This document shows, one piece after another, positions 7,251-25,696 of a DNA stretch of 31,745 nucleotides; position 1 is the stretch's first letter; each line of letters starts with the position of its first letter. The notes under the pieces were generated by a model. The model had not been told where the DNA came from. It was given only the letters and a program-made list of their open reading frames with translations, and did not search any database. The stretch comes from a virus, in IMG/VR virus record IMGVR_UViG_3300042914_000356, positions 1-31,745 of that record, one strand, 5' to 3'. The position numbers and the translations under genes are program-made.

Positions 7251-7257
7251 CCTCCTT
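7251..7257 (-). promoter_or_regulatory. Strong Shine-Dalgarno site of the tail tube-like gene
   Basis: Reading minus, AAGGAGG lies six bases before the ATG at 7244 and overlaps the capsid gene's TAA. Most genes in this genome have A-rich leaders without such a site, so this one stands out and supports high expression and translational coupling with the capsid gene. Confidence 0.75.
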
Positions 7258-8191
7258 ATGCTAATTTAAACTGAACGATTTGATCAGGGAATGCAAACTG
7301 CACACCATACTTCATGGTAGCACGGAAACGAACTTCATCTGCGTCTTGTGAATACCAAAATCTGTATTCTTCTTGTTCATTTGCTAAGTCTGTGCCTACA
7401 AACAAGTTAGACAAACGAGCTAAGAACATACGGTTTGTGCCGTTCAATCCACCTACAGCAATCAATTTCACGTTAGTTGCAGGAATCATGATTTCCATTC
7501 CTTCACTGTCAGCAGCGTAGTGGAATAAGTTAGATGCTCTTAAGGCAGTGCTATACTTTTTGAAAGTATCAATACCTACAAACAAAACCAAGTCAGAAGC
7601 ATCAGCGATGTCTGCAGGTACTACGTTGTAGATGTTATCAATCAAATCTTCTACGTTAGCAGTAGTGATTGAAGTTGCACTTGAAGTGTTACCAGCAACA
7701 GTTGAAGCAGAAGCAGCGTCAATCAACTTAATGAAACCGTCAAACTTGTTAGTGTTAGGGTTAGTGTTGGTTGTTGCGGTGTCACCTTGCCACATTGCGA
7801 TTTCTAACAATTTAGCGATGTTGTTCGCTTTGTCTTGACCGATTTGCTCCTCAAAAGGTACTGAAGTTGGAGAACCTGCAGCCATTTGGGTTTGCATCCA
7901 CTTTGCTTCCAAAGTCTTAGGGCACAAAGTCTCTTCAACTTTGATTTTACCTACAGTGATGTTACGCTGAGAGAAAGTAGTGTTACCTGAAGCGGTATAC
8001 CCACAACCGTCTGTCTGAAACCAAAGGTCACTTGTAAGGATGTTCAAAGCCTCTGCAGACTTTACACCTACTTGAACTTGACCTGCTGCTTGTAAAATAG
8101 AAGCAGTTTTTGAACCAAACAAAGACTTAAGTACTAACTCTGTAGACTGCTCGTTGGTGTAATTTGCTAAGGCTGATACGTTAAATGCCAT
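7256..8191 (-). CDS. Major capsid protein
   Basis: A 311-residue HK97-fold-type candidate. It follows the protease and scaffold genes and precedes the tail tube gene, the classical position for the shell subunit. Features include an N-terminal helix (YTNEQSTELVLKSLFGSKTA), a P-loop-like strand region (FSQRNITVGKIKVEETLCP near residue 73), a long helix (FEEQIGQDKANNIAKLLEIA near 113), and a C-terminal beta region (VRFRATMKYGVQFAFPDQIV). The A-domain core includes DLVLFVGIDTFKKYSTALR near 200. It starts at the ATG at 8191 within an A-rich leader. The call rests on pattern and gene order. Confidence 0.88.
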   Translation of the reverse strand: MAFNVSALANYTNEQSTELVLKSLFGSKTASILQAAGQVQVGVKSAEALNILTSDLWFQTDGCGYTASGNTTFSQRNITVGKIKVEETLCPKTLEAKWMQTQMAAGSPTSVPFEEQIGQDKANNIAKLLEIAMWQGDTATTNTNPNTNKFDGFIKLIDAASASTVAGNTSSATSITTANVEDLIDNIYNVVPADIADASDLVLFVGIDTFKKYSTALRASNLFHYAADSEGMEIMIPATNVKLIAVGGLNGTNRMFLARLSNLFVGTDLANEQEEYRFWYSQDADEVRFRATMKYGVQFAFPDQIVQFKLA

Positions 8192-17454: not shown

Positions 17455-18480
17455 TTATGGTCTACACACTTTCTGTAACAAATCTATCCTTTTTTTGTTA
17501 ATCTCTTTAATGTTGTGATGCTCGTTGCAGTAGTTGTAGTTAATCAATCCTACATCTTTACTTTTTCCGCTTTCTATCAGTTGAGTTAACGGTGTAGTCC
17601 AATCGTTATTCTGCACAAAGAATACGCCTAAGTTGCTTTTGTGGTTGGTGTATGGCTCTACACTTGAAACTAAAATAGGTCGCTTGTAAGCAGCAGCCTC
17701 AACAATCTTCAATTCTGATTTGTATCGGTTAAATGTCTGAGCCGTCAAAGGTGCTAAACAGATATCTATCTCTGAATAAATCTCAGCATACTTATCAGGT
17801 GTTGTTCCTACTCTTGTTTCAAACCAAGTTGGACGGTTCTTTTGGCTCTCTCCTGTAATGGCTTTCTCCATCTCTGCCCACATTCTACTATTCTCGTGGT
17901 GACCGCCCATTATAAAGCGGTAGCCGTACTTCTCGCAGATAGGTCTTATTTGATTTGTAAGCAACTTAATATCTTCAACGTGACTTATTCCACCTACCCA
18001 ACCAATCGTTGGTGTATGGTCTTTATTTACGTTCCATTGAGCCTGTGTAAAGTCTACTGCGTTTTCAGCTATTGTAATGTTGTCGCCCTTGTAAAACTCC
18101 TTTATCTTTTCAGCAAGTTGTGGAGTCGTAACTTGTACTCCATCGGCATAGGTTAAAGCATTCTTAACTCCATCTTTAATGTATGCTCTATAAAACTTGT
18201 AGGCTGGGTTGTACTTTGGCAGTACCCAATAGTCGTCAAGGTCAACGATGTAAGGCACTTTGTATTTTGCAAGTAGCGGGAGTATATTGTACTGATACCT
18301 TCCTAACCAACGGTTAAATATAACGCAATCGTATTGCTCATAATCAAGGTTTAACCAATCTTCGTGGTTCAGACTTACATCTACGGTAATGTCGTGATCT
18401 TGTTGTAAACGAAGATAAGGCGTATACAATCGGTGGAAAGATACGCCATTTGCTCCGTCAAGTAGACAAATTACTCTCAT
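17455..18480 (-). CDS. Glycosyltransferase of the GT-B fold (GT4-like)
   Basis: A 341-residue enzyme that would transfer a sugar from an activated donor. The N-terminal Rossmann domain starts MRVICLLDGANGVSFHRLYT and includes DYEQYDCVIFNRWLGRYQ near residue 49. PYIVDLDDYWVLPKYNP (near 76) has the acidic strand end typical of the family. TPTIGWVGGISHVEDI near 161 marks the start of the second domain, and LKIVEAAAYKRPILVSSVEP near 260 carries the donor-binding E-x7-E-type region. Lying between packaging genes, it may glycosylate a virion protein, modified DNA, or host surface sugars. The family is confident, the target is not. It overlaps the previous gene by one base. Confidence 0.87.
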   Translation of the reverse strand: MRVICLLDGANGVSFHRLYTPYLRLQQDHDITVDVSLNHEDWLNLDYEQYDCVIFNRWLGRYQYNILPLLAKYKVPYIVDLDDYWVLPKYNPAYKFYRAYIKDGVKNALTYADGVQVTTPQLAEKIKEFYKGDNITIAENAVDFTQAQWNVNKDHTPTIGWVGGISHVEDIKLLTNQIRPICEKYGYRFIMGGHHENSRMWAEMEKAITGESQKNRPTWFETRVGTTPDKYAEIYSEIDICLAPLTAQTFNRYKSELKIVEAAAYKRPILVSSVEPYTNHKSNLGVFFVQNNDWTTPLTQLIESGKSKDVGLINYNYCNEHHNIKEINKKRIDLLQKVCRP

Positions 18481-20186: not shown

Positions 20187-20798
20187 TTAGTTCATTTTTT
20201 TCTTAAATAATAAACTCCACTTTGTAGGCTTTGACATCTCCAGTAATAGAGTGAATCCGCATTGCTCAAATAAATGCACCCAATGTGCTACAGGCTTGAT
20301 GTTGATGTGTCCCCATTCTTTGTCAAAATTAGAGTAGTGAGGCGTGGATGAGAAATGAAAGTAGTTGCACTTTAGGTTTGCTAAGAATGGTTTGAGTTTG
20401 TCGTCCTCTATATGCTCCATTACTTCTATGCAACTTACAAAGTCTGCTTTGATTTTCTTGGTTGTAAAGTCACAGATATGATATTCATCGGCAACGTCAC
20501 GAGAGTGAGCATATTCGTAGTGATGTTCATTCAAATCGTAGTAAATAGTCTTGATGCCTTTCTTCTTCATTGCTAAACAATAAGCACCTACTCCACCGCC
20601 TAAGTCTGTGTGTGTTTTAATATCTAACAGAGTTGTTATTTCATTTACAACATCGTCATACATATTTACAAAAGATGGGTTATCTAAATGTATGCCGTTT
20701 CGCATCTCGTAGTCAAAGCATTGCTGATTATTCCAAGTTCCTCCGAATGAGTTCATATTCCCTAAGTAGTTGTTTTGTTGTTTTTGTTTCTTTGCCAT
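20187..20798 (-). CDS. Class I SAM-dependent methyltransferase
   Basis: A 203-residue product from the ATG at 20798 (MAKKQKQQNNYLGNMNSFGG). A GTG at 20816 would add six residues, but GGAG lies just before the ATG. Motif I is THTDLGGGVGAYCLAMKKKG near residue 63. IYYDLN near 85 ends the second strand, DFVSCIEVMEHIEDDKL near 122 is motif IV-like, and a late HFSSTPHYSNFDKEW segment follows. The fold suits a small-molecule, protein or nucleic acid methyltransferase and cannot be narrowed from sequence. It overlaps the 59-residue gene upstream by 71 bases. It could modify phage DNA, tRNA or a sugar. Confidence 0.82.
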   Translation of the reverse strand: MAKKQKQQNNYLGNMNSFGGTWNNQQCFDYEMRNGIHLDNPSFVNMYDDVVNEITTLLDIKTHTDLGGGVGAYCLAMKKKGIKTIYYDLNEHHYEYAHSRDVADEYHICDFTTKKIKADFVSCIEVMEHIEDDKLKPFLANLKCNYFHFSSTPHYSNFDKEWGHINIKPVAHWVHLFEQCGFTLLLEMSKPTKWSLLFKKKMN

Positions 20799-20907
20799 TG
20801 CTCCAATAACTAACACCTCTCACGATGTCGTATAAGACATAAGAGTTGTGTGCTAAGTATTCAGCGAATTTAACTTGTTCTTCTCTTTCTTTTTGGTTTT
20901 TGCTCAT
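20728..20907 (-). CDS. 59-residue hypothetical protein with FAEY helix
   Basis: Starting from the ATG at 20907 (MSKNQKEREEQVKFAEYLAH), a helical, charged N-terminus is followed by SYVLYDIVRGVSYWSNGKET and a basic helical end (TTKQLLREYELIRRNLE). Upstream ATGs at 20910 and 20916 are also in frame. It overlaps both neighbours, by 38 bases before and 71 bases after. The FAEYLAHN helix resembles FAEWIAEN in the 53-residue gene at 20016, suggesting related small proteins on either side of the methyltransferase. Function unknown. Confidence 0.6.
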   Translation of the reverse strand: MSKNQKEREEQVKFAEYLAHNSYVLYDIVRGVSYWSNGKETKTTKQLLREYELIRRNLE

Positions 20908-21877: not shown

Positions 21878-22045
21878 TCAATATTGTTTCCACACTACTC
21901 TTGTTGTAAGTGATTCGTCAACTGATACTAACTCCCATCCTAACTTAGTGTACTTTCTCCAGTAATAGATGACTTCCTCTTCATTGTTAAGACAAATATG
22001 GAGATATTCTGGTGACCTCCTCAAGGTAATTGTCAGGAATCGCAT
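21878..22045 (-). CDS. 55-residue conserved-looking protein overlapping the DnaA-like gene
   Basis: A frame from the ATG at 22045 to the TGA at 21878: MRFLTITLRRSPEYLHICLN, NEEEVIYYWRKYTKLGWELV, then SVDESLTTRVVWKQY. The YYWRKYTKLGWELVSVDE stretch is a typical small beta-helix arrangement and is strongly protein-like. It overlaps the DnaA-like gene by 59 bases and fills the stretch between that gene and the sigma-like one. No function can be assigned. Confidence 0.65.
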   Translation of the reverse strand: MRFLTITLRRSPEYLHICLNNEEEVIYYWRKYTKLGWELVSVDESLTTRVVWKQY

Positions 22046-22472
22046 TTAGTCTTGATTTAATTCTGTTGTGCATTGCCGTCTCAAACTTCATGTTGATGTC
22101 TAAATAGTCTCCTATCATATCTCTGCCGTGAATGACTGTACTGTGGTCACGGTTTAAATATAGTCCGATTTTCTTGAGTGACTGATTTAGTTCGTTGTAT
22201 GCGAAGAAACAGAACATTGCTCTTGCTATTACATACTCACGCTTTCTTGATCGAGAAAAAAAGTCTTTAGGTATCACGTTGGACTCTTGACAAACTATTC
22301 TGAGCAGTTCATCAAAGTTCTTGTCTACCTTTTTTGTTTTCTGCTCAGGTTTAAGAATCATTTGTCTTAACTCTTGGATTTCTCTCTTAGCACTTTCAAG
22401 TTTGTTCTCGTAGGTTGTTTTTAACCTGGTGTGTGCTGCTTTTAATTTGATGTATTCGTATTCGTAGTTCAT
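21987..22472 (-). CDS. DnaA domain IV-like DNA-binding protein
   Basis: A 161-residue protein from the ATG at 22472 (MNYEYEYIKLKAAHTRLKTT), which overlaps the methyltransferase stop as ATGA. An in-frame start at 22508 would overlap more and looks less natural. Residues 1-55 are a charged coiled coil (TYENKLESAKREIQELRQMI). From about 65 the sequence follows DnaA domain IV: ELLRIVCQESNV, REYVIARAMFCFFAYNELN, LKKIGLYLNRDHSTVIHGRD. DHSTVIHG is the DnaA-box recognition signature. The AAA+ ATPase domain is absent. It may mark the phage origin for the helicase encoded upstream, or mimic or compete with host DnaA. Confidence 0.85.
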   Translation of the reverse strand: MNYEYEYIKLKAAHTRLKTTYENKLESAKREIQELRQMILKPEQKTKKVDKNFDELLRIVCQESNVIPKDFFSRSRKREYVIARAMFCFFAYNELNQSLKKIGLYLNRDHSTVIHGRDMIGDYLDINMKFETAMHNRIKSRLNAIPDNYLEEVTRISPYLS

Positions 22473-23101
22473 AGTAGTTTTCCTTGTATTAATCCTGGTT
22501 TGCTCCATTGTTGTGCCATTGCTTTAGCTATTCCTGGAAATGTTTGACTTCTTATTTTCCATCTTAAATCTCCTTTATTTAAGGCTTCAAAAAACCACAT
22601 TGGTTGTCTTTTCTTTTTACCAGTTTTCTTATCAATCCATTCTTTAAATTCTCCTTTTTGAACAATATTAGTTGCAGTTAATTTTGGTAAATTTTTTAAC
22701 CATAAACAAGTAGACTTTTGAAATGGGTCACCAAACTCATAAGGTTGGATTACTTGGTCATGTGGTCTTATATTACTTGAAATTATACCTAATGGGTTTT
22801 CGATTGCTATTTTATCAATAGGTGCTAACATCAAAGTCTTTACAAATTCTAAGGCTTCTTGTTGTCTACCGTCTTGCCTTTTTTTCTCAAAATGTGGTGC
22901 ACCACTTAATGCCAAATGTGTACATGGTGGGAATGCTATCATTAAATCCCATCCGTCATTGATAATATCAAACACATCACCAGTATAGTGTGGTCCAGGT
23001 ACATCAGTTGGCAATAGGTCGCAACTCATTGCATCGTGCCCAAGTTTAATAAATTCGTCACGAACCGCTCCGCTATATTCACAAGCTATTAAAACTCTCA
23101 T
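22469..23101 (-). CDS. DNA cytosine methyltransferase-like protein
   Basis: A 210-residue protein. Motif I is VLIACEYSGAVRDEFIKLGH (near residue 3). The PPC catalytic loop is IAFPPCTHLALSG near 54, and AIENPLGIISSNI near 99 replaces the usual ENV motif with ENP. The later FFEALNKGDLRWKIRSQTFP and GIAKAMAQQW match the last motifs. It is shorter than most 5-cytosine methyltransferases and has little room for a target-recognition domain. It could protect the phage genome against host restriction. It overlaps the helicase stop by ATGA. Confidence 0.83.
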   Translation of the reverse strand: MRVLIACEYSGAVRDEFIKLGHDAMSCDLLPTDVPGPHYTGDVFDIINDGWDLMIAFPPCTHLALSGAPHFEKKRQDGRQQEALEFVKTLMLAPIDKIAIENPLGIISSNIRPHDQVIQPYEFGDPFQKSTCLWLKNLPKLTATNIVQKGEFKEWIDKKTGKKKRQPMWFFEALNKGDLRWKIRSQTFPGIAKAMAQQWSKPGLIQGKLL

Positions 23102-24327
23102 AGTATTTCTTTATATCGTGTGTATCTTCCTTCAAATGACATCGGTACAGATACGCATTGCCCATGTCTATTCTTGCCTATAATTAACTCAGCATCCATT
23201 TCAATCTCAGGTTTATCATCTGAGTAGTACGCTGGTCTAAATGGAAATAAAACAATATCAGCATCCTGTTCAATTTGACCACTCTCTCTTAAGTCTGAAA
23301 GCATTGGTTTCTTTTCAGCTCGTTTTTCAGTTTCTCTTGAAAGTTGTGCGAGTGCTATTATTGTAATTCCTAACTCTTTAGCCAAAAGTTTAAGCGTTCT
23401 GCTAATGTGTGCAATCTCTTGCTCTCTTACTTTCTGATGGCTTTTAATTAATTGCATATAATCAATGAAAACTATATCAAGACCATGTTTAGCCTTATGT
23501 AGTTTTATCTTTGCTACAATGTCATTTATATCACTATTACTGCCATCGTCAAGAAAGAAGTCCATATTCATTCCGTAAAGTTGTTCTGTGATTTGTTTTA
23601 AATCAGATTCTGTTAATCTCGCACTTCTTATTTTGTAGTTTTCTACATTTGCAATAAACGAAAGATATCTTTTTGCAAGTTCCTCTTTAGACATCTCAAG
23701 AGAAATAAATAGAACCTTTGCAAGTTTACATGAGTCAATGGCAAGTGAAAGAGCAATGGCAGTTTTACCGCTTCCAGGTCTACCTGCTATTACAACCATG
23801 TTTCCTTTATTCCAACCTCCTATATATTTGTCAAGGTACTTCCATCCTGTGCTTATGCCTGTCATGTTTGTACCTCTTTGAACTGCCTCGTATAAAGTGT
23901 CAATTACTGTACCTGCTACTGAAGAAATTACTTTTGCTTTCTGACCAACACTTACGGTGTTTTCTTGAAGCATTAAATTTATGTCGCTTATTATTTCGTT
24001 TAAATCACGGTCATAATTAAAATAAGCCATCTTAGACTGTATGTTGTTTTTCTTGTAAGCAATCTCAATCTGAAGAATCTCTTTTTCTAAATTGACGTTT
24101 GTAGTTACATAATTTTGCATTGTTGAAATTTCTCTAATGTGTTCACGATGGCGTAAACCAACAGAGGATAAACTTACAGGCTCATTACTCATATATAACT
24201 CTTGCATTGTAGTTACAACGTCTTTTCTAAATGAGCTAAACCATTGAGGGTTTAATTTCATTATAAAGTTGTGTGCATCAGGATAAAGAAACATTTGTCC
24301 TATTATGCTATTTTCTATTTCAATCAT
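23098..24327 (-). CDS. Replicative DNA helicase, DnaB family
   Basis: A 409-residue hexameric helicase. The N-terminal domain (MIEIENSIIGQMFLYPDAHN) is short but recognisable. Walker A is VVIAGRPGSGKTAIALSLA near residue 178. LFISLEMSKEELAKRYLS near 205, DIVFIDYMQLIKSH near 283, and ALAQLSRETEKR then LSDLRESGQIEQDADIVLFP near 345 are the standard DnaB motifs. The loading partner is probably the DUF6291-like product just upstream, whose gene overlaps this one by 8 bases. No DNA polymerase or primase is seen, so the phage relies on the host replisome. Confidence 0.95.
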   Translation of the reverse strand: MIEIENSIIGQMFLYPDAHNFIMKLNPQWFSSFRKDVVTTMQELYMSNEPVSLSSVGLRHREHIREISTMQNYVTTNVNLEKEILQIEIAYKKNNIQSKMAYFNYDRDLNEIISDINLMLQENTVSVGQKAKVISSVAGTVIDTLYEAVQRGTNMTGISTGWKYLDKYIGGWNKGNMVVIAGRPGSGKTAIALSLAIDSCKLAKVLFISLEMSKEELAKRYLSFIANVENYKIRSARLTESDLKQITEQLYGMNMDFFLDDGSNSDINDIVAKIKLHKAKHGLDIVFIDYMQLIKSHQKVREQEIAHISRTLKLLAKELGITIIALAQLSRETEKRAEKKPMLSDLRESGQIEQDADIVLFPFRPAYYSDDKPEIEMDAELIIGKNRHGQCVSVPMSFEGRYTRYKEIL

Positions 24328-24880
24328 CTAATGTTGCTCTTTTATGTGTTATCGTTGGTGTTTGCAAAGTTATCTTTTTTGGTGGATAAATACCGCTGTA
24401 ATTATTTGCTATGCTATACTCTACAGCGTTTTTAAAGTCTAAAGGGTTTGGATAATCTTTAACGATTGTTTTCTTTAATGCTTCAAGTCCAGTAGGTTTA
24501 TACGTTTGCTTTTTCTCTTTCTTGTACTGTAACCATAAATTTAAACTCTCTTTGTATTCTTTTACATTATCATTATCATTTACATTAGCTTTTACTTTGC
24601 TTTCGTTTAGGTTATGTTTAGGTTCTATTTTGGTTTCAGTTAGGTTTTCTTTTGCTTTCTTTGGTCTACCTCCTTTATTGCCATTTGCATACTTACGCAA
24701 ATTTGCATCTAATTGAGGTTTAATAAGTTTGAAAATTGTAGATGGCAAACCACTTAAATCAATTTGATTCTGGTTTAATCCGTACTCAAAAACTGCTTCC
24801 CAAACTTTCGCTTGGTGTAGTGGCTCAAGCTCTTTGATAGCATCATAGAACGAGCGGTAAATTATCATTGACTCTCTCAT
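24320..24880 (-). CDS. DUF6291-like replication protein, candidate initiator or helicase loader
   Basis: A 186-residue protein starting MRESMIIYRSFYDAIKELEP. Residues 1-60 follow the DUF6291 pattern (KVWEAVFEYGLNQN, STIFKLIKPQLDANLRKYAN), ending in a basic GNKGGRPKK. A low-complexity lysine- and asparagine-rich linker (KVKANVNDNDNVKEYKESLN) and a C-terminal helical region (KPTGLEALKKTIVKDYPNPL) follow. The family commonly precedes helicases in phages of low-GC hosts, which suggests an initiator or loader role. The start ATG carries GAGAGAG and is preceded by the structured leader and two mini-ORFs. Confidence 0.78.
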   Translation of the reverse strand: MRESMIIYRSFYDAIKELEPLHQAKVWEAVFEYGLNQNQIDLSGLPSTIFKLIKPQLDANLRKYANGNKGGRPKKAKENLTETKIEPKHNLNESKVKANVNDNDNVKEYKESLNLWLQYKKEKKQTYKPTGLEALKKTIVKDYPNPLDFKNAVEYSIANNYSGIYPPKKITLQTPTITHKRATLDD

Positions 24881-24897
24881 AAATAAAAAATGCCCAT
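24877..24897 (-). other. Mini-ORF 2, six codons, coupled to the DUF6291-like start
   Basis: ATG at 24897, then MGIFYL and a TGA that overlaps the ATG at 24880 (ATGA). It lies just after hairpin B. It may couple translation into the downstream gene. No start-site motif is visible. Confidence 0.4.
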
Positions 24898-24901
24898 AGA
24901 A

Positions 24902-24926
24902 AATAGATGTGAGAGAGACATCTATT
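24902..24926 (-). repeat. Hairpin B with CTCTCTC loop
   Basis: Reading minus, AATAGATGT-CTCTCTC-ACATCTATT forms a perfect 9-bp stem and a 7-base loop. A TTTTC run follows at once, so it could act as a weak terminator. The loop is the exact complement of hairpin A's loop and of GAGAGAG at the downstream start codon. Confidence 0.82.
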
Positions 24927-24928
24927 AA

Positions 24929-24967
24929 CTACAGGCAAATATCTTTTAACTTAACCATCTCTCTCAT
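24929..24967 (-). other. Mini-ORF 1, twelve codons, in the leader
   Basis: ATG at 24967, encoding MREMVKLKDICL, with the stop TAG at 24931-24929, two bases before hairpin B. Its first codons (ATG AGA GAG) copy those of the real gene at 24880. The position of the stop means a ribosome finishing it would cover the base of hairpin B, as in translational attenuators. Confidence 0.4.
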
Positions 24968-24971
24968 GGTT
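24953..24971 (-). repeat. Hairpin A with GAGAGAG loop
   Basis: Reading minus, AACCAT-GAGAGAG-ATGGTT forms a perfect 6-bp stem with a 7-base loop. The loop is perfectly complementary to hairpin B's loop, 33 bases further on. The ATG of mini-ORF 1 is at the stem-loop boundary. Confidence 0.78.
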
Positions 24972-25036
24972 GTGTTTCGCTATTTACAAAAAGAGAGGCA
25001 GCAGGTGTTATTACTACCCCTCCGATTTGGTGTATG

Positions 25037-25066
25037 CAAATATAGTTAATTATTTTATAATTGCAA
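25037..25066 (-). promoter_or_regulatory. Promoter of the replication operon
   Basis: Reading minus, TTG (25066-25064), a 19-base spacer, then TATATTTG (25044-25037), a close fit to the Bacteroidota TTG-N19-TAnnTTTG form. The -33 region lies in a 14-bp perfect palindrome, ATAATTGCAATTAT (25057-25070), a possible operator. It opens a leader of about 150 bases before the DUF6291-like gene. Confidence 0.75.
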
Positions 25067-25696
25067 TTATCTACCATTTTCTTTGTGCCATTTTCGGTGG
25101 CATTGTCCACATAAAGTAACCCCATTGTTTACATCAAATCTTAATGATTCATTGTCTTTATAAGGCTTTATATGGTGAGCGTGTAAATCATAGACGCTAT
25201 TACATTCAGTACATTTACCATCCCTTAACTTTACCATAGACGCCCAAGCAACTTGATTAAATCCTCTTTTATTTTTAGACGTTTTTGGAGTTACACTCTT
25301 TTTATAAATCTGTTTTAAAACTACTGTTTTAGGCTTTATTTCTAATAACCAATTTAATTCATTTACAACGCGACTTAAAACTTGGGTAGATGATTCAGTA
25401 TTTACATTGGATAATCTTATATGTGCATCAGTTGGTTCAAATGCTACTAATGGTATTAAATCTCGTTCATAGAATTCTTCATCTTCTTCAGACCAAACTT
25501 CTTCTTGGTGTATAATACCTTCATAATCAAATATTTCGCAGCAATTATAAACATCGTGTAAATCCTTAAATAAATGAGCATATTTAGTTGGAACTGCAAT
25601 AGCCTCTAATTCTGGACCACCAAAATAATCCTGTATTGTAATTAAATAATCTTGATACTCGTATTGCTCAAATACCTTTATTTCAACTACTGGCAT
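25067..25696 (-). CDS. HNH endonuclease with uncharacterised N-terminal domain
   Basis: A 209-residue protein. Residues 1-140 (MPVVEIKVFEQYEYQDYLIT, EEVWSEEDEEFYERDLIPLV and so on) match no family I know. The C-terminal 65 residues form an HNH nuclease: FNQVAWASMVKLRDGKCTEC, DLHAHHIKPYKDN, and NNGVTLCGQCHRKWHKENG provide two CxxC zinc pairs and the active-site histidines. It could be a homing-like nuclease or a defence/counter-defence enzyme. Its stop codon lies inside the palindrome of the next promoter. Confidence 0.82.
   Translation of the reverse strand: MPVVEIKVFEQYEYQDYLITIQDYFGGPELEAIAVPTKYAHLFKDLHDVYNCCEIFDYEGIIHQEEVWSEEDEEFYERDLIPLVAFEPTDAHIRLSNVNTESSTQVLSRVVNELNWLLEIKPKTVVLKQIYKKSVTPKTSKNKRGFNQVAWASMVKLRDGKCTECNSVYDLHAHHIKPYKDNESLRFDVNNGVTLCGQCHRKWHKENGR

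Follow-up and report, generated by a model that had tools for sequence, protein, structure and literature searches.

What does a phage gain from placing two hairpins with mutually complementary loops in front of its replication genes? The question is raised by the leader between an HNH endonuclease gene (25067–25696) and a DUF6291 gene (24320–24880) in IMG/VR virus record IMGVR_UViG_3300042914_000356. The window, that is, the whole stretch of DNA analyzed, comprises 31,745 bases of this record, and gene listing, Pfam, and PHROGs place all recognizable genes on its minus strand. A PHROGs match to phrog_678 ("replication initiation O-like," E = 4.6e-6) was also obtained for the DUF6291 protein, which appears to be similar, in part, to λ O-like replication initiators; a DnaB-type helicase is encoded second in the operon. 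Also part of the replication operon is a gene (21987–22508) whose product contains a DnaA C-terminal (box-binding) domain (PF08299) as the only Pfam domain found. Further along the window lie genes for a methyltransferase-like protein (20187–20816; phrog_4752, E = 1e-5) and a glycosyltransferase (17455–18480; phrog_7162, E = 2e-42). The capsid-like protein (7256–8191) has INPHARED matches only to two Nonlabens phages (four records, 24%), and these matches, together with the Bacteroidota-type promoter described below, make a host from the Bacteroidota probable.

Bacteroidota use their own type of promoter. Its consensus (σABfr type) consists of TAnnTTTG at −7 and TTG or TTTG near −33, as given in the accessible text of PMC7366714. 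The leader of the window matches this consensus with TATATTTG and a TTG 19 nt upstream, and transcription is predicted to start near 25030. The features that follow are compiled in the table.

Table. Leader and first operon genes of the window, in the order of transcription
Feature	Position	Strand	Basis
Promoter: −33 TTG (25066–25064), 19-base spacer, −7 TATATTTG (25044–25037)	25037–25066	−	Motif search, sequence reading
T1, additional terminator-like hairpin with T-run, 12 pairs	24992–25023	−	Simple terminator scan
Hairpin A, AACCAT-GAGAGAG-ATGGTT	24971–24953	−	Sequence reading, RNAfold
Linker between hairpins A and B	24938–24952	−	Sequence reading, fold
Full stem-loop B, terminator-like, 9 + 9 pairs around a TT/TT internal loop	24891–24937	−	Sequence, fold, covariation
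Top of hairpin B, AATAGATGT-CTCTCTC-ACATCTATT	24926–24902	−	Sequence reading, RNAfold
U-tract TTTTTT of terminator B	24885–24890	−	Sequence reading
DUF6291 (PF19808) protein, first gene after the leader	24320–24880	−	Pfam, E = 1.8e-15
DnaB-type helicase, second operon gene	23098–24327	−	PF03796, E = 9.9e-85

The original prediction of two hairpins with perfectly complementary 7-base loops is borne out on the minus strand, where the GAGAGAG loop of hairpin A (24965–24959) is the exact reverse complement of the CTCTCTC loop of hairpin B (24917–24911). Hairpin B as first described is the upper half only of a longer structure, the stem of which extends downward by pairing of 24937–24929 with 24899–24891. 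The base of this stem is G+C-rich (TGCC...GGGCA) and is followed directly by TTTTTT, the form of an intrinsic terminator; among the relatives listed, B likewise ends in GCC(C)...GGG(C) and a T-run. The ATG of the DUF6291 gene (24880) begins four bases past the U-tract, so that a putative terminator is located between the promoter and the first operon gene, as in an attenuator. The segment 24977–24885 folds at −29.4 kcal/mol (RNAfold; z = −5.1), a value reached by none of 200 shuffled sequences. A simple terminator scan of the window flagged T1 alone and missed B because the TT/TT internal loop interrupts its stem. T1 lies between the promoter and hairpin A (region 24978–25036, fold z = −4.6), occurs only in the group of the window and in some relatives, and varies among the latter. 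The downward extension of B with its U-tract, the promoter, and T1 had all been overlooked initially.

The linker of the window contains AAAGATATT (24946–24938), and the first bases of the linker are able to pair with an AAC that precedes hairpin A. The resulting helix P0 (UUAAC with GUUAA) encloses hairpin A and is moderately supported, because two-sided changes among 22 aligned leaders (see below) are confined to its top pair.

Relatives of the leader were collected in two ways. A search with the DUF6291 protein returned nine close relatives (L001–L009), the divergent L010 and L011, and a fragment (L012); L010 has no upstream sequence, and L011 shows the identical layout with GTAGGAG as loop A and CTCCTAC as loop B. 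Viral contigs were then scanned by upstream and linker motifs, followed by a detector for linker, hairpin, stem A, and loop complement, and L312, L316, L346, L347, and L352 were taken into the sample beyond the loci listed by the scans. Six of the 60 detector matches (L130, L141, L176, L267, L279, and L331) were dropped by eye as false because of weak hairpins or a coding-like or bacterial context, which left 54 distinct elements; L319, with one G-U in its loop pairing, stands outside this number. Most of the 54 were fetched by motif, and the detector demanded a AAAGATATT-type linker with at most one mismatch, so that elements with other linkers are under-represented.

To control for this bias, we sampled leaders by the downstream protein of L057 alone. 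The best 80 of its 535 relatives in IMG/VR provided 46 distinct upstream regions from 79 loci (L485 was too short upstream), and 34 of these 46 contain the element, which is thus not rare among the best relatives of this one protein in IMG/VR. The 34 comprise 31 detector matches, counted after removal of L492 by eye, and L444, L491, and L493, which were added by eye; L515 is doubtful as an element. The detector has little specificity alone, since 273 of 1840 shuffled sequences yield some loop-complementary hairpin pair. Single cases such as L515 are therefore weak, and the force of the evidence lies in covariation. The other 12 of the 46 DUF6291-type leaders are without the element, so the gate is dispensable. 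In L488 and L492, the site upstream of the DUF6291-like gene is taken by a long hairpin leader of another kind (AAACGCTCCGGC...GTCGGAGCGTTTTGC).

Loops and stems do covary among relatives, a check that the original prediction had proposed. The 54 distinct elements carry 20 distinct loop pairs of 6–9 nt, all with complementarity kept. In a first alignment (26 elements from an early set of 35 distinct ones), 96.0% of the cells of the loop–loop helix are paired, with two-sided changes in five of six pairs; for stem A, stem B, and the loop–loop helix together, the values are 95.7% and 21 of 26 pairs. The whole-structure score of 0.762 compares with 0.247 (S.D. 0.018) for shuffled and 0.085–0.145 for slid alignments. 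On a tree of these 26 elements, calculated with the loop columns excluded, the loops changed at least 15 times and complementarity was retained, so that independent variation of the two loops, which would have spoken against their pairing, is not what we find.

A second alignment, of 22 leaders out of the 34 with the element in the protein-sampled set, gave the same picture. The loop–loop helix is paired in 98.7% of cells with two-sided changes in all seven pairs, two-sided changes affect 25 of 36 pairs overall, and the whole-structure score is 0.497 (shuffled, 0.201, S.D. 0.012; slid, 0.098–0.111). Two-sided changes in stem A were found in four of four pairs of the first alignment and in five of six of the second. 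Because the main detector itself demands complementarity, candidates were also selected blind to the loops, by promoter, linker, and hairpin. Among the 59 candidates obtained, 52 have an exact loop complement of at least 6 nt, L319 has one G-U, and six are non-elements by eye. Among the 416 cells of stem B, 98 are G-U and two A-C, and because G-U so far outnumber A-C, the structured molecule is the minus-strand transcript.

An invariant linker core, AAAGATATT-N-GC, was considered and withdrawn, because the protein-sampled leaders share the architecture with other linkers, e.g. ACCACTATT, ACCCCTGTT, and AACCCTTTTA. The apparent invariance was largely a search bias, since the selection patterns contained the linker. 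The stretch between P0 and stem B measures 8–10 nt in all 22 aligned leaders and comes in 15 sequence variants among the 22 rows; what holds is the length of the linker, and not its sequence.

Several details proposed originally did not withstand this comparison. The third GAGAGAG, at the start codon, is present in the window, where the motif occurs seven times versus 3.4 expected, but it recurs just past the U-tract in only five of 54 elements, all of the window's group. The CTCTCT at 24997–24992, suggested as a further pairing box, is the 3′ strand of the hairpin upstream of A; its pairing is not conserved, and it is unchanged in L021 and L052 although loop A differs there. Alternating CU and GA boxes with mutually exclusive pairings are therefore not supported, since neither the CTCTCT nor the start-codon copy is conserved. 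The first of two proposed mini-ORFs is open for at least seven codons in only seven of 54 elements, and one inserted T shifts its frame in L001 and L004; an ORF like the second occurs in 16 of 54. A conserved short ORF over the hairpins, as leader-peptide attenuation would have it, was not found among the 54 elements. What stands of the proposed RNA switch before the replication operon is the anatomy, which the conserved loops and the operon position support well; the box and mini-ORF details fall away.

The element is regularly accompanied by a promoter motif. Of the 54 distinct elements, 52 have TAnnTTTG no more than 75 nt upstream of stem A, compared with 989 of 17519 control windows (5.6%), a count that refers to the −7 motif only. 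Its distance to stem A is 3–14 nt in 39 of the 52 and 63–67 nt in the other 13, and those of the latter that were inspected have T1 in between. In the protein-sampled set, the motif is found in 31 of 34 element-bearing leaders versus none of the 12 element-less ones. When the motif is taken as the sole criterion, it is present in the examined stretch of 31 of the 46 leaders, and each of these 31 has complementary loops (28 by detector and three by eye).

The position relative to genes is equally consistent. In 49 of 54 elements, an ATG that opens an ORF of at least 45 amino acids starts no more than 15 nt from the U-tract, compared with 587 of 5000 random positions (11.7%). Of the 35 distinct elements that have at least 3 kb of downstream sequence, 27 are followed within 6 kb, on the same strand, by a gene for a DnaB relative. 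Elsewhere, the gene directly downstream encodes an HNH, GIY-YIG, or endonuclease VII-like protein, a Lin1244-type protein, or a dCMP deaminase.

Homing-type endonuclease genes are often the direct downstream neighbor (L036, L122, L252, L272, L337, L347, and L376). They are of the NUMOD4-HNH type in L122 and L376, endonuclease VII-like in L252, and GIY-YIG (below cut-off) in L272, whereas those of L036, L337, and L347 were named from sequence only. The HNH gene upstream of the leader in the window is a mobile endonuclease gene adjoining the element: L001, L002, L006, and L111 have a relative of it next to the element, and L003, L008, and L009 do not. Whole virus records contain one copy of the element in 17 of 18 cases and two in one, that of L122. 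The two copies of L122 (2383–2473 and 5860–5951) are about 3.5 kb apart and have unlike loop pairs; the first precedes a replication-type gene and DnaB, and the second precedes an HNH gene.

The promoter motif, both hairpins, the conserved loop–loop pairing, the terminator form of B, and its position are evident from the sequences. We infer in addition termination of transcription at B, a regulated read-through, and control of the choice between the two by loop pairing. With moderate confidence, we thus regard the leader as an attenuator that acts in cis, close to the promoter, on the replication operon of the phage. Starting at the TAnnTTTG promoter, RNA polymerase would transcribe in order the 5′ hairpin A, the 8–10-nt single-stranded linker, and the long terminator hairpin B, whose U-tract touches or almost touches the start codon of the first operon gene. 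Most transcripts would stop at B and yield an RNA of ∼95 nt (longer with T1), and the remainder would read through. Loop A would pair with loop B over 6–9 bp. In the variant that we prefer, the B-loop strand is caught by loop A on emerging from the polymerase, at a time when the 3′ half of B is still to be made, so that loop A would serve as a timer and hold back formation of the terminator hairpin. The odds of read-through would be set by a signal (a phage or host protein, an RNA, or a ligand) at the A/linker region.

Folding of partial transcripts is compatible with such a timer. When the transcript ends just past loop B, the main partner of A is loop B, with a mean of 7.6 expected pairs, and hairpin A is reduced to 0.3 expected pairs; the pairing of A with loop B falls once the 3′ strand of B appears. 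These calculations, which cover nested folding only, with kissing beyond the model, suggest that loop A could delay the terminator. The 5′ strand of B pairs more weakly with the linker or with A (2.9 and 2.1 expected pairs), and no prominent competing antiterminator helix besides the loop pairing appeared in the consensus partial folds. By rough geometry, with values that we assume, an end-to-end intramolecular kiss would be strained when P0 is closed and the linker measures 8–10 nt, and the kiss may therefore need an open P0, a bend, or a second molecule. P0, the kiss, and the full hairpin B may thus compete, or the kiss may act between molecules.

A kiss between molecules leads to a different reading, in which the terminated RNA is a trans-acting antisense RNA that would pair through its loops with the leader of its own phage or of a related one and so set copy number or immunity in the manner of P4 CI RNA, with the loop alleles as specificity groups. 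The element is indeed a complete promoter-RNA-terminator unit, its 20 loop alleles are largely distinct (eight of 380 non-cognate combinations share a run of at least 6 nt), and the two copies of L122 carry unlike loops. P4 CI RNA likewise acts on transcription into replication genes, according to the accessible text of PMC4825925. In close pairs of elements, the rate of change of the loops is about double that of stem B (0.26 versus 0.12); however, stem A changes as fast as the loops (0.24), so that there is no loop-specific excess of change, and we rejected the notion of the loops as fast-evolving specificity groups. Moreover, cis pairing should beat trans pairing, and Pfam and PHROGs scans of 22 window proteins named no integrase. 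The window phage may still be capable of lysogeny, since a small protein weakly matches the transcription-regulator family phrog_4779 (E = 5.9e-4). On balance, a trans-acting antisense RNA seems unlikely to us.

The joint presence or absence of element and promoter motif could also mean that both form a portable promoter-terminator cassette or insulator, whose terminator damps transcription and whose loop pairing stabilizes the RNA without any regulation. One downstream gene is indeed found with various elements and one element with various genes, and homing-type endonuclease genes are frequent neighbors. Yet neither the preservation of loop complementarity over at least 15 changes on the tree nor the placement of a start codon against the U-tract would be required of a passive insulator, and we judge this explanation rather improbable.

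The short linker, which by the rough geometry given above disfavors a straight intramolecular kiss, would also suit an RNA oligomer in which loop A of each copy pairs with loop B of its neighbor to give dimers or rings. Two unlike, mutually complementary loops on one RNA are likewise a property of the φ29 packaging RNA (pRNA) as far as it is described in the accessible text of PMC7357161. Most records, however, place the element before replication genes (the DnaB relatives counted above) and not before packaging genes, the window phage has an ordinary large terminase (phrog_2), and loop B belongs to a terminator set against a start codon, all of which makes an oligomer highly improbable. That the inverted repeats act as DNA, either as the replication origin that was initially offered as an alternative or as an operator, is hardly credible: although they adjoin initiator and helicase genes in an operon that also encodes a DnaA C-terminal-domain protein, the G-U asymmetry of stem B is strand-specific, DnaA-box-like sites show no excess in the window (34 versus 46 expected at up to one mismatch), and the GC skew of the window does not change sign.

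The proposed cis-acting attenuator could not be matched to a cataloged RNA family in the stretches tested. Rfam 15 gave no match at gathering score for the window, L057, L064, and L066. At E values up to 1, the window leader had only a sub-threshold match to AfaR (18.1 versus 100 bits), L252 had only sub-threshold matches (ncr1575 and STnc460), and L334 had none. RF01695 (c4) gave no match in the Rfam scans made. INPHARED blastn with the element produced no match except four records with E near 1 or above, and of eight INPHARED records with a DUF6291 relative, the four inspected lack the element by eye.

Cellular sequences were searched as well. At least 119 pattern matches occurred in cellular contigs, and a model search of the 80 listed ones found nothing convincing; the best candidate, L190 (31.8 bits, E = 0.016), lacks the loop complement by eye. 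A model search of eight whole genomes had no matches among the 150 first-look candidates scored per genome, and neither did a linker-based pattern, which is blind to other linkers, in 395 Bacteroidota genomes. Literature searches returned no such element among the matches listed, and the element may already be published.

We tentatively propose an uncataloged switch family of Bacteroidota-type phages in which a 5′-terminal hairpin captures the nascent loop of a terminator. A largely orthogonal loop pair of 6–9 nt that varies by lineage would time or condition the entry of polymerase into the replication operon, with P0 closure, the kiss, and the finished terminator in competition. To our knowledge, gene timing in Bacteroidota phages is little understood. 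The element is compact and has a built-in code, in that swapping one loop breaks the pair and swapping both should restore it. Should termination be controlled by the kiss, the natural loop pairs, numbering 20 or more, would constitute a ready set of RNA parts and offer a way to ask how a nascent loop holds back a terminator hairpin.

We know of no system that joins a 5′ hairpin to the loop of the terminator following it, but several known systems share individual traits with the element. Pseudoknotted riboswitches with a terminator, such as the ZTP and fluoride riboswitches, have a tertiary pairing near the terminator in a short leader. The element resembles them in both respects and, unlike them, has no invariant core for a ligand pocket, because the linker sequence varies. 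In antitermination of phage λ, at nut/tR1 (N) and PR′-tR′ (Q), a terminator lies between promoter and operon (O-P in the case of tR1). The element shares this order as well as a hairpin and a single-stranded box upstream, whereas boxA/boxB and an N- or Q-like protein were not identified here, albeit without a systematic search, and we know of no counterpart of the loop–loop complementarity in the λ N and Q systems. Like the c4 antisense RNA of P1/P7 (RF01695) and P4 CI RNA, the element would tie RNA–RNA pairing to premature transcription termination.

The accessible text of PMC4825925, which also treats λ-type Q antitermination, describes CI RNA of the satellite phage P4 as stopping transcription into replication genes. 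The seqA–seqC attenuation of P4 and the element thus both involve a phage leader RNA before replication genes; P4, however, employs a processed antisense RNA and separate target sequences in that account, whereas here the loops belong to a 5′ hairpin and to the terminator itself. IsrK RNA of Gifsy-1 is similarly a short promoter-RNA-terminator unit with read-through into phage genes, and it exists in short and long forms (PMC4825925). Unlike the element, IsrK activates translation in trans, and the accessible part of that source describes it without terminator-loop kissing. The φ29 packaging RNA differs in gene context, size, and terminator position, but it shares with the element the feature from which this analysis started, two loops of one phage RNA that are mutually complementary (PMC7357161, accessible text).
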